Origin: Hymenobacter sp. BT559
GTDB taxonomy: Bacteria; Bacteroidota; Bacteroidia; Cytophagales; Hymenobacteraceae
Direction: 5' to 3'
DNA: 64,000 nucleotides
NCBI RefSeq assembly: GCF_017571525.1
Contig: NZ_JAGETY010000001.1
Coordinates: 62,001-126,000 of the forward strand
The position numbers and the translations under genes were made by a program. Shown in pieces: positions 4,402-43,772 of this stretch (within the stretch, counting starts at the first letter, position 1; each line of letters begins with the position of its first letter). Under the pieces are notes generated by a model that saw only the letters and a list, made by a program, of their open reading frames with translations, ran no database searches and had not been told where the DNA came from.

Positions 4402-4452
4402 CCCTTACCAATCCGGTACTCCCCCGCAGCAGGCAGGGCAGTTTTAGTAAGT

Positions 4453-4567
4453 TTTATACAGAAGCGGCGAGAGATTAGGCTCTTTGACCCGCTGGCAACC
4501 TTCACCCGCTGAAAGGTGCCAATTCCTACCCCGGTAGCCGCCACGCGCCGCCCGGGGGTCTATAAAT
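4453..4567 (+). ncRNA. SAM riboswitch (SAM-I/SAM-IV clan) upstream of peroxiredoxin-metY-metX
   Basis: The sequence carries the S-box core: TGACCCGCTGGCAACC (4485-4500), then GGTGCCAATTCC (4515-4526). Stems I can pair are: P1, TTTATA (4453-4458) with TATAAA (4561-4566); P2, GCGG (4464-4467) with CCGC (4489-4492); P2 inner, GAGAG with CTCTT; P3, CCTTC with GAAAGG. The P2 loop TAGG (4476-4479) can pair with CCTA (4525-4528), the SAM-I-clan pseudoknot. P2 lacks an obvious kink-turn, so it looks closer to the SAM-I/IV variant than to canonical SAM-I. Family knowledge: such elements bind S-adenosylmethionine and lower expression of Met genes. The downstream genes metY and metX fit this. Confidence 0.85.
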
Positions 4568-4576
4568 CGAGTACCC

Positions 4577-4717
4577 ATGGCACATTCCGTTTTCTTCGCT
4601 ATCCCTTCCACCTCCGCCACCACTGTGCGCGGCTTCGGAAAATTTTTGCTAGCCCCCACGGCTAGCCCGGCCCCCGCGAGCCTGCGAATGCGAATGTGCT
4701 GTTGTTGCCAAGGCTAA
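4577..4717 (+). CDS. Putative polycysteine leader peptide (46 aa, ends CCCCQG)
   Basis: A 46-codon ORF begins at an ATG ten bases after the riboswitch P1 stem and ends LRMRMCCCCQG. The four Cys codons are TGC TGT TGT TGC at 4697-4708. Internal ATGs at 4688 and 4694 could give nine- or seven-residue versions. The fourth Cys codon overlaps the 5' arm of a hairpin whose loop is the TAA stop (4707-4727), followed by a T-rich stretch. This is how an attenuator driven by Cys-tRNA starvation would be laid out, and it lies before sulfur-assimilation genes. Polycysteine leader ORFs acting as Cys-responsive attenuators are known in mycobacteria; applying that here is inference. Whether the peptide itself is stable or functional is unknown. 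Confidence 0.5.
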   Translation: MAHSVFFAIPSTSATTVRGFGKFLLAPTASPAPASLRMRMCCCCQG

Positions 4718-4738
4718 GCCTTCTGGCGCTTTTCAATT
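4707..4738 (+). terminator. Attenuator-like hairpin on the leader-ORF stop codon
   Basis: GCC-AAGGC (4707-4714) pairs with GCCTT-ct-GGC (4718-4727, two-base bulge), and the loop is the leader stop TAA. TTTTCAATTTT and more T-rich sequence follow. A ribosome held on the Cys codons would cover the 5' arm. Terminator activity is inferred. Confidence 0.45.
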
Positions 4739-4761
4739 TTCTCCTTTTTGCGGGTAGTACA

Positions 4762-4841: not shown

Positions 4842-4936
4842 AACCAGCTGCTACCTGAGCAGCAACCCCGGAGAACGCGAAAAGCCAACAGCACGGAGTT
4901 TACCCAAACTTTTCTTGTCGCTATTTCTCGCTTCGC

Positions 4937-7065
<2,129 letters not shown>

Positions 7066-7083: not shown

Positions 7084-7120
7084 AAATGGTGCCCCGGCCG
7101 CTGGCCAGGGCACCATTTTG
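7084..7120 (+). terminator. Terminator between metY and metX
   Basis: AAATGGTGCCC (7084-7094) pairs perfectly with GGGCACCATTT (7108-7118), followed by TTTG. It implies that metX has its own promoter or depends on read-through, although no clear TAnnTTTG box precedes metX. Confidence 0.8.
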
Positions 7121-7203: not shown

Positions 7204-8232
7204 ATGCCCGAGTTATTCTTTTCCCTGCCCGACCCATTGCCACTTGAAAGCGGCGAGCTACTGGCCGGCGCTAGGGTAGCCTACCGCACCTGGGGACAGC
7301 TCAACGCCACCCGCGACAACGTGGTGTGGGTGTGCCACGCCCTCACGGCCAATGCCGACGTGCTCGACTGGTGGCCCGGGCTGTTTGGGGAAGGCTGCTT
7401 TTTTGACCCGGCCGATTGGTTTATCGTGTGCGCCAACGTGCTGGGCTCGTGCTACGGCAGCACCTGCCCACTCGATGCCGACCCGGCCACCGGGCTCGGG
7501 CGCTTCCAGGATTTTCCACTGCTCACCATCCGCGACCTGGCGGCCGCCCACGAGGCCCTGCGCCAGGAGCTGGGGCTAGCCCACATTCATACCCTCATCG
7601 GCGGCTCGCTGGGCGGGCAGCAGGCCCTGGAATGGGCCGCCAGCCAGCCTGATGCTATTGGCCACCTGGTAGTTATTGCTACCAGCGCGCGGCATTCGGC
7701 CTGGGGCATCGCCTTCAACGAGGCGCAGCGCCTAGCCATCGAGGCCGATGCTACCTACCACGAAAACCGGCCCGGCGGCGGCGATGCCGGGCTAGCAGCG
7801 GCCCGCGCCGTGGCCCTGCTCAGCTACCGCGGCTACGAGGCCTACGCCAACACCCAGACCGAGCCCAGTGACGACGTGCTGCGCGACTTTCGGGCAAGCA
7901 GCTACCAGCGCTACCAAGGCAACAAGCTCGTGGCCCGCTTCGACGCCTATAGCTATGTGGTGCTCTCGCGGGCCATGGACTCGCACAACCTCGGCCGGGG
8001 CCGGGGCGGGGTAGCCGCAGCCCTAGCAGGCATTCGGGCGCGCACGCTGGTGCTGGGCATTACTTCGGACGTGCTGTTTCCGCTCAGCGAGCAGCATACC
8101 CTAGCCGAGGGCATTCCAGGCGCGGTGTATGCCGAACTGGATTCGAGCTACGGCCACGACGGCTTTTTGCTCGAAACTGCCAAAATCACGCAGGCCCTAG
8201 AGGCCTTTTACGCCGCGGCGCTGGCTGAGTAG
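7204..8232 (+). CDS. metX: Homoserine O-acetyltransferase
   Basis: The 342-residue alpha/beta-hydrolase-fold enzyme matches the MetX family along its length. Landmarks are YRTWGQLNATRDNVVWVCHALTAN cut across residues 22-45, NVLGSCYGSTCPLDADP, the nucleophile elbow IGGSLGGQQALEWA with Ser135, the SYVVLSRAMDSHNLGRGRGG stretch, an Asp in ITSDVLFPLSEQ, and the catalytic His318 in YGHDGFLLE. It acetylates homoserine with acetyl-CoA, giving the substrate of MetY. The L-homoserine acetyl- versus succinyl-transferase split cannot be settled from these motifs alone, but pairing with an O-acetylhomoserine sulfhydrylase favours acetyl. It ends at a bidirectional terminator shared with the convergent SusCD operon. 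Confidence 0.93.
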   Translation: MPELFFSLPDPLPLESGELLAGARVAYRTWGQLNATRDNVVWVCHALTANADVLDWWPGLFGEGCFFDPADWFIVCANVLGSCYGSTCPLDADPATGLGRFQDFPLLTIRDLAAAHEALRQELGLAHIHTLIGGSLGGQQALEWAASQPDAIGHLVVIATSARHSAWGIAFNEAQRLAIEADATYHENRPGGGDAGLAAARAVALLSYRGYEAYANTQTEPSDDVLRDFRASSYQRYQGNKLVARFDAYSYVVLSRAMDSHNLGRGRGGVAAALAGIRARTLVLGITSDVLFPLSEQHTLAEGIPGAVYAELDSSYGHDGFLLETAKITQALEAFYAAALAE

Positions 8233-43592: not shown

Positions 43593-43738
43593 TATCCAGA
43601 AAGAAAGCCACGCCGGGCGGCGCGAGTTCCGGCTGATATCTTCTTCGACCTAACACAGTGGCCGAACAGGAGTTGGCACCTACTCGAGGTAGGTTGCCAA
43701 GACGTCATCGGGCCTGGTCCCTCGGTCTTTCTGGATAG
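43592..43738 (-). ncRNA. SAM-I (S-box) riboswitch upstream of metH
   Basis: Read on the minus strand, P1 is CTATCCAGAAAG (43738-43727) with CTTTCTGGATAG (43603-43592), 12 perfect pairs. P2a is AAGAC with GTCTT, a kink-turn-like CGA/GATGA lies inside, and P2b is GGG with CCC. The core motifs are CTTGGCAACC and GGTGCCAACTCC. The P2 loop CAGG can pair with CCTG in J3/4, the diagnostic pseudoknot. P3 is CCTAC with GTAGG. All features of canonical SAM-I are present. It lies directly upstream of metH and should repress it when S-adenosylmethionine is abundant (family knowledge). Confidence 0.93.
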
Positions 43739-43772
43739 CAGCAAGGGCGAAGATACAACGGCTAGGCCCAAA

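Follow-up and report, generated by a model that had tools for sequence, protein, structure and literature searches.

Upstream of a group of sulfur genes in Hymenobacter sp. BT559 lies a 46-codon open reading frame (ORF) whose predicted peptide ends in a run of four cysteines, which raises the question of what such a run, placed beside a stop codon, could be doing there. The initial annotation of the window (the whole 64,000-nucleotide stretch of DNA analyzed) took this ORF, ending in RMRMCCCCQG, to be a cysteine-responsive attenuator, pointing to a hairpin at 4707 to 4727 with the TAA stop codon as its loop, to a fourth Cys codon overlapping the 5' arm of that hairpin, to a T-rich stretch behind it, and to peroxiredoxin, metY, and metX genes downstream. 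The ORF, the hairpin, the overlap, and the T-rich stretch are all present. Profile searches bore out the peroxiredoxin and metY genes, whereas the third gene is metX-like by matches that fall under their cut-offs. The SAM-I riboswitch at 4451 to 4568, which ends 8 nt before the ATG codon of the ORF, was absent from that first reading. The features of the locus are as follows.

4451 to 4568, + strand: SAM-I riboswitch aptamer (RF00162; cmscan 67.9 bits, E 1e-13, gathering score 44.4)
4453 to 4458, + strand: 5' strand of helix P1, TTTATA, read from the sequence and of the P1 type common to leader-bearing sites
4561 to 4566, + strand: 3' strand of helix P1, TATAAA, read from the sequence, its end 10 nt 5' of the leader start codon
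4577 to 4717, + strand: leader ORF with ATG start, 46 amino acids, MAHSVFFAIPSTSATTVRGFGKFLLAPTASPAPASLRMRMCCCCQG, and stop codon TAA at 4715 to 4717
4685 to 4708, + strand: proposed regulatory codons Arg-Met-Arg-Met-Cys-Cys-Cys-Cys, from the Cys and Met enrichment in the tails of related leaders and the leader alignment
4697 to 4708, + strand: the four Cys codons of the leader, the fourth being 4706 to 4708
4707 to 4727, + strand: predicted stem-loop over the stop codon, GCC-AAGGC-TAA-GCCTT-CT-GGC, from folds, with a counterpart in Hymenobacter metY leaders
4937 to 5626, + strand: peroxiredoxin-like gene (AhpC/TSA; Pfam PF00578), the first gene 3' of the leader
5680 to 7065, + strand: metY, O-acetylhomoserine aminocarboxypropyltransferase (Pfam; TIGR01326, 676 bits against a cut-off of 495)
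7204 to 8232, + strand: metX-like gene, homoserine O-acetyltransferase (best NCBIfam matches TIGR01392 and PRK00175, both under cut-off)

The leader peptide matched no Pfam family and no meaningful NCBIfam family in profile searches. Between metY and the metX-like gene, at 7088 to 7114, there is a GC-rich inverted repeat followed by ATTTTGTGTTG, which suggests that the metX-like gene is possibly a separate transcript. The peroxiredoxin-like gene separates the leader from metY both in the window and at 10 named Hymenobacter loci (L115 to L120, L123, L146, L151, and L167), with 63 to 79% identity, and is absent from this position in the other named loci.

Considered at this one locus, the Cys run and the hairpin are, on shuffling and counting, near what chance would give. 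The window has a single TGYTGYTGYTGY run, and of 100 shuffled versions of the window, 33 had one or more. The run occurs 96 times in the genome, and among 30 of these sites that were examined, 3 (the window's included) lie no more than 16 codons from the stop codon of an ATG- or GTG-initiated ORF of 20 to 66 amino acids. The hairpin segment alone gave a z of -0.38, its fold being equaled or bettered by 61 of 200 shuffles. It is conservation that makes a feature of them.

The aptamer is a full-length one, covering positions 1 to 108 of the RF00162 model, and is one of five SAM-I sites in the genome. An ORF with clustered Cys codons lies directly 3' of two of the five, the window site and a site before cysH (L004), where the peptide ends in QHGCCCMCCPCRMCTGAMRSC. 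At a third site, before an amino-acid permease gene (L002), there is an ORF with two Cys residues near its end, and no such leader ORF was found at the genome's sites before hom and metH. The window contains a second SAM-I riboswitch (43633 to 43741, - strand), located before metH, which has the other P1 type and no leader ORF.

SAM-I sites in relatives were classed by the 5' strand of P1 as TTTATA/TATAAA or as the other type, CTTATC/GATAAG. Across all tabulated sites, a Cys-cluster ORF was present at 170 of 183 TTTATA/TATAAA sites versus 4 of 86 sites with the other P1, in a tabulation that selected for Cys clusters and in which related leaders are not independent, some named and unnamed loci being from the same or nearly the same strain. 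The 183 sites are made up of 179 with an ORF, 9 of them without the Cys cluster, and four without a start codon in range (L236, L251, L260, and L270), which were placed by the P1 rule and of which L251, L260, and L270 have a P1 of the CTTATT type. The ORFs at leader sites are 23 to 64 amino acids long, start a few nucleotides 3' of P1, and have their Cys codons clustered near the end; the 170 leaders represent 165 unique peptides. Of the other-P1 sites, L007, L011, L014, and L019 are the four positives, and in each the ORF is short and carries CCSSD close to the N terminus. Within the genus, the sample had the Cys-cluster ORF at 76 of 78 TTTATA/TATAAA sites versus 4 of 36 CTTATC/GATAAG sites; the share of leader sites within the genus is not a natural frequency because sampling was biased by length (from at least 150 places, every one of the 66 additional sites of up to 96 nt was included, compared with 14 of the 52 longer sites). 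The family, order, class, and phylum samples consist of the best-scoring loci, at most 30 each. Family and order together gave 24 of 29 TTTATA/TATAAA sites versus 0 of 24 of the other type, and the class sample, composed mostly of metH sites, gave 0 of 4 versus 0 of 26.

Loci with a named metY record provided a further sample, in which a riboswitch lies upstream in 72 of 80 cases and is followed by a Cys-cluster leader in 70 of those 72, the leader start having been set by hand at 11 metY loci. The eight loci without a riboswitch match are L157, L161, L163, L164, L166, L171, L175, and L186, some of which are cut by contig ends. The cysteine-responsive leader proposed at the outset is on these counts the best reading of the ORF, but it does not appear to be a stand-alone element; its place is that of the expression platform of a SAM-I riboswitch. 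By family label, eight families of the window's order, that of the window among them, have Cys-cluster leaders (f1, f4, f5, f9, f14, f18, f19, and f22), as does one family outside that order (f61), and the named leader loci include Pedobacter, Mucilaginibacter, and metagenome genomes labeled Cyclobacteriaceae, Flammeovirgaceae, and Microscillaceae. A survey of 247 genomes produced riboswitch matches in 198, a count of riboswitches and not of leaders, and the 29 loci read from the best 30 of that survey, the 30th being the window's own site, included 10 Cys-cluster leaders.

Some sites depart from this pattern. One genus of the order has an ORF without a Cys cluster at the leader position before metY (three sites: L314, L315, and L319/L230), which indicates that cysteine sensing is not obligatory. 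At L325 (family f74), the ORF in the leader position before metY is Met-rich (SMRMRMPM) and has three dispersed Cys residues, possibly a methionine-sensing version. At L332, which belongs to another family, a MetX-like gene starting at +14 takes the place of the leader behind the same P1 type; its product has 47% identity to the window MetX over 77 aligned positions, and at L330 a 501-residue frame starts at +12 behind this P1 type. Genes located at the start position of the leader fit the idea that this P1 type controls the initiation of whatever ORF begins there, which at the majority of the sites read is the Cys leader.

The genes behind the leaders belong to a limited set. In the genus sample, the leader was present at 29 of 30 cysH sites, 15 of 16 amino-acid permease sites, 16 of 16 sites before an ATP-grasp protein, and 3 of 3 metY sites, as well as at 7 of 7 sites before a TonB-type protein, where adjacency is less certain. 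It was found at none of the 10 hom, 8 metH, and 12 MetB/MetC-like sites of the same sample. Sites before a PLP enzyme of the cysteine-synthase type, a label that is a reading of its sequence, were flagged by the loose rule in 4 of 6 cases, and the ORFs concerned are short, with CCSSD early in the peptide. The cysH product exceeds its NCBIfam cut-off, and the ATP-grasp protein has a weak match to RimK-type families. The P1 type would give a simple mark separating Cys-linked from Met-only SAM-I sites.

Several observations bear on whether the leader is translated. The start codon is ATG or GTG and lies most often 6 nt behind P1 (64 of 170 leaders), followed by 7 nt (25 of 170). A purine occupies position -3 of the start in 95% of the 170 leaders, which fits the Kozak-like initiation without a Shine-Dalgarno sequence that is described for Bacteroidetes in the available part of an earlier study (PMC6847099). 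In the last 15 codons of the 165 unique leaders, Cys accounts for 34% and Met for 10%, compared with 3.4% and 0.8% in the rest of the ORF, and when the same DNA is read in its other two frames, Cys accounts for 8% and 3% and Met for less than 1%; the Cys enrichment is partly by construction because the tabulation selected on Cys clusters, whereas the Met and frame tests are unaffected. Cys had been proposed as the signal, and Cys is indeed enriched, but Met codons are enriched alongside. The Met share of the tail codons is 11 to 15% in the cysH, metY, and mixed groups, 6% in the ATP-grasp leaders, and 2% in the permease leaders. The final codon before the stop encodes Cys in 114 of 170 leaders. 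Between close pairs of leaders, gap lengths divisible by three made up 108 of 160 gaps within the ORF versus 48 of 262 in the 80 nt behind the stop; a looser first test (33% in the ORF versus 24% after the stop) was weak because it was diluted by poor alignments, and close pairs were used instead. Synonymous changes were about as frequent as nonsynonymous ones in the Cys codons and about half as frequent in the N-terminal part (0.98 versus 0.53). The N-terminal part of the leader drifts, and the number and spacing of Cys residues in the tail vary between leaders. By these comparative measures, the leader ORF appears to evolve as a translated frame, and the sulfur genes are preceded, as at a leader-peptide attenuator, by a short ORF whose codons specify their end product.

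The RNA behind the leader stop is less uniform. Two further features of the window are located there.

4729 to 4749, + strand: pyrimidine-rich (T/C) tract after the stop, read from the sequence, a candidate Rho-loading (rut-like) stretch
4886 to 4894, + strand: CAACAGCAC, complementary to the Cys-codon stretch 4696 to 4704 (minimum free energy structure, pair probability 0.93 to 0.94)

The stop hairpin has a counterpart in the Hymenobacter metY leaders (z of -1.40 ± 0.20, n = 43, for a 36-nt window from 10 nt before the stop compared with shuffles) and was not seen in the cysH, permease, ATP-grasp, or other metY leaders, whose folding dips lie elsewhere. Conservation of the Cys codons and of the hairpin, which the initial annotation had proposed as its check, is thus divided: the Cys codons are broadly kept, whereas the hairpin is kept only among Hymenobacter metY leaders. 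Pyrimidines make up 80 to 84% and G 10 to 12% of positions +20 to +39 in 46 Hymenobacter metY leaders, and positions +20 to +29 contain 54% C and 10% G. The cysH leaders have an equivalent pyrimidine-rich, G-poor tract at +10 to +19, and no clear C/U tract was found in the permease, ATP-grasp, or other metY leaders. We infer that the tract at 4729 to 4749 may act in Rho loading.

Other structures behind the stop belong to particular groups. One group of other metY leaders (for example, L172, L174, and L188) has anti-Cys stretches of the form CAGCAACA 3' of the stop, and behind them, about 25 to 70 nt after the stop, is a conserved stretch resembling CTGCCGAGTGACGGGTATGG (L172, L174, L180, L181, L184, L188, and L192), for which Rfam scans of three of these leaders (L174, L188, and L192) gave no match. 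An Rfam scan of seven relatives at E values up to 5 returned the SAM aptamer and chance-level matches only, with no known RNA family in the spacer. The Pedobacter and Mucilaginibacter metY leaders (L168 to L194) have two successive hairpins after the stop, with apparent compensatory changes judged by eye and no U tract, and a consensus fold (RNAalifold) of 13 leader spacers of the Sphingobacteriaceae type contained no pair. As far as these folds and scans indicate, there is no downstream structure common to all leader groups.

The reading that we favor, with a probability of roughly 0.6, is a two-input leader in which a SAM-I riboswitch would control a Cys-codon leader, such that the genes behind it would be on only if both SAM and Cys (or Met) are low. 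What sequence comparison supports well is the architecture, with a riboswitch match, an ORF that has a fixed position, a kept frame, and a Cys/Met tail, and a characteristic gene context; SAM control of leader initiation, ribosome stalling, and the downstream action are the steps that we infer from it. The SAM-I riboswitch would form first on the mRNA. SAM binding stabilizes the P1 helix of SAM-I riboswitches, and the 3' strand of P1 would here sit at the ribosome landing site, so that with SAM bound the leader would go untranslated and the genes would stay low; this step is proposed because of the established behavior of SAM-I riboswitches and the geometry of the locus. When SAM is low, the leader would be translated. 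With ample Cys-tRNA and Met-tRNA, the ribosome would run off the leader and expression would remain low, whereas scarcity of Cys-tRNA, and possibly of Met-tRNA, would stall the ribosome on the Cys/Met codon tail by the stop, a step proposed because of the tail codons. The stalled ribosome would cover the RNA around and behind the stop, which in Hymenobacter metY leaders includes the stop hairpin and the C/U-rich tract. This covering would turn on the downstream sulfur genes, most likely by blocking Rho or other termination and alternatively by freeing the downstream start region, and the last step may differ between gene groups. That such leaders form a widespread hybrid in Bacteroidota, acting as a serial NOT-SAM AND NOT-Cys/Met gate that reads both Cys-tRNA and Met-tRNA before several sulfur operons per genome, is a more tentative proposal, to which we give slightly less than even odds.

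Two other readings place the action in RNA structures behind the Cys codons. Control of the mycobacterial type, in which the Cys codons pair near the start of the downstream gene and a stalled ribosome frees that start, is unlikely, although it has some evidence in its favor: the stretch 4696 to 4704 is fully complementary to 4886 to 4894, the same 9 nt recur in L115, L116, and L117, and the other metY leaders have their anti-Cys stretches after the stop, with mean pairing slightly better than in shuffles. The predicted long-range helix in the window lies 42 nt 5' of the peroxiredoxin start, but only 4 of 11 peroxiredoxin-type leaders have the full 9-nt partner, the pairing is weakly above shuffles (mean z of -0.14 to -0.72 by group), and in most loci the partner is 90 to 240 nt from metY or otherwise far from the start codon. 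Long-range pairing between Cys codons and spacer as a general device was accordingly rejected, being weak on average and strong only in a small clade that includes the window. A stand-alone Cys attenuator, in which the stop hairpin would be an intrinsic terminator prevented by stalling on the Cys codons and the riboswitch would be a separate control, is improbable. It can draw on the hairpin and the T/C-rich stretch behind it in the window, on the conservation of the hairpin in Hymenobacter metY leaders, and on the ATP-grasp leaders, where terminator-like sites exceed the shuffle expectation (7 of 18 versus 3.1). The corresponding counts in Hymenobacter metY (6 of 46 versus 9.6), cysH (4 of 32 versus 6.0), and permease leaders (3 of 17 versus 3.6) are not above shuffles, and that in other metY leaders is slightly above (4 of 44 versus 2.5); a simple scan did not list the window hairpin as a terminator, the tract behind the hairpin is C rich in relatives, and the spacing from riboswitch to start is too constant for independent elements. 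Neither the scan nor the shuffle comparison lends general support to an intrinsic terminator at the stop hairpin. Classical attenuation of that kind does not seem to be indicated in general, because terminator-like sites are at or below expectation in three of the five gene groups, and an intrinsic terminator with a competing antiterminator has no support in most groups, the ATP-grasp leaders being the exception in terminator-like sites and the consensus fold and the Cys-codon pairing tests giving no common alternative pairing.

The remaining readings give the Cys codons no sensing role. Leader translation might merely shield the nascent RNA from Rho, with the riboswitch alone regulating and the Cys tail acting as a slow constitutive pause, and the ORF-bearing sites without a Cys cluster (9 of 179, among them L314 and L315) are consistent with this; we consider it slightly less probable again than the stand-alone attenuator, given that Cys clusters are kept in 170 of 179 leaders while the N-terminal part drifts and occur only before genes that use Cys or sulfide. 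A functional Cys-rich micropeptide, for example, one binding metal or sulfide under control of the SAM riboswitch, would account for the conserved Cys-rich C terminus and the kept frame, but it is very improbable: the tail alone is conserved, its Cys number and spacing are variable, four unrelated gene types lie behind it, and the peptide matches no Pfam or NCBIfam family. Finally, GC-rich DNA yields TGC/TGT runs by chance, and the shuffles, the genome count, and the hairpin z would make such an origin likely if the single locus were all there was; the comparison across relatives, in which both the position and the Cys tail recur at 170 sites, refutes it and leaves chance a negligible prospect.

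The favored two-input leader has partial parallels among known regulators. Known SAM-I riboswitches (S boxes) end in a terminator or block the start of the gene itself; the aptamer here is a full-length match to that class, RF00162, and the blocked element would instead be a Cys-coded leader. In E. coli tnaC, a ribosome stalled at the leader stop masks the rut site behind it, the stall depending on free tryptophan and not on codon starvation. In a similar way, the stalled ribosome proposed here, next to the leader stop, would mask the tract behind it. Mycobacterial polycysteine leader ORFs, reportedly the subject of a study by Canestrari et al. in 2020, are leaderless, whereas a leaderless start at the window ORF is unlikely because a complete aptamer lies directly upstream. 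They share with the leaders described here a short ORF with a Cys run near the stop, a position upstream of cysteine or sulfur genes, and the lack of a conserved terminator. They differ in having no riboswitch and in being actinobacterial, whereas the present ORF lies in Bacteroidota and begins at the end of a SAM-I aptamer, its Met codons are also enriched, and the genes behind it are metY, cysH, and those for a permease and an ATP-grasp protein. The accessible parts of the literature describe polycysteine leader ORFs in mycobacteria and other Actinobacteria (Seliverstov et al. 2005, PMC1262725; PMC13236596), and the 2005 paper, in its accessible part, already suggested Rho for the actinobacterial leaders (PMC1262725). 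The uORFC-8-2 motif before cysS in Rhodobacterales has two tandem Cys codons and, in the portion of the source available, is read by its authors as ribosome-mediated attenuation (PMC8632094); a Cys-coded leader ORF is common to both systems, but uORFC-8-2 has an intrinsic terminator and no riboswitch, regulates a Cys-tRNA synthetase, and is alphaproteobacterial. In the ppe2 leader of Mycobacterium tuberculosis, a short translated ORF is under the control of a B12 riboswitch, and the downstream gene depends on that ORF; this leader differs in its ligand and in its termination-reinitiation coupling, and the available part of the report mentions no amino-acid-sensing codon run (PMC11260477). The SAM-II riboswitch of metA in Sinorhizobium acts on an AUG located at some distance upstream of the true start, although it is of another aptamer class and, in the text available, its AUG1 is in frame with metA and no Cys codons are involved (PMC9373788). 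Closer to the present organism, the accessible part of a Flavobacterium study gives clues for leader-peptide attenuation before amino-acid operons and does not name Cys or SAM (PMC9723704), that of a Bacteroides study mentions leader-like short ORFs (PMC7366714), and that of a regulon survey of cis-regulatory RNAs makes no mention of leader peptides (PMC3766115). No description of a SAM riboswitch combined with a polycysteine leader was found in the open-licence literature searched.

If the two-input reading is true, a single RNA leader would integrate SAM with the supply of charged Cys-tRNA, and perhaps Met-tRNA, before several sulfur operons and would do so without a regulatory protein. Polycysteine attenuation would then extend to Bacteroidota, with a codon-based sensor as the direct target of a riboswitch, and these leaders would offer a ready system in which to study how a phylum that lacks Shine-Dalgarno sequences initiates and uses leader translation.
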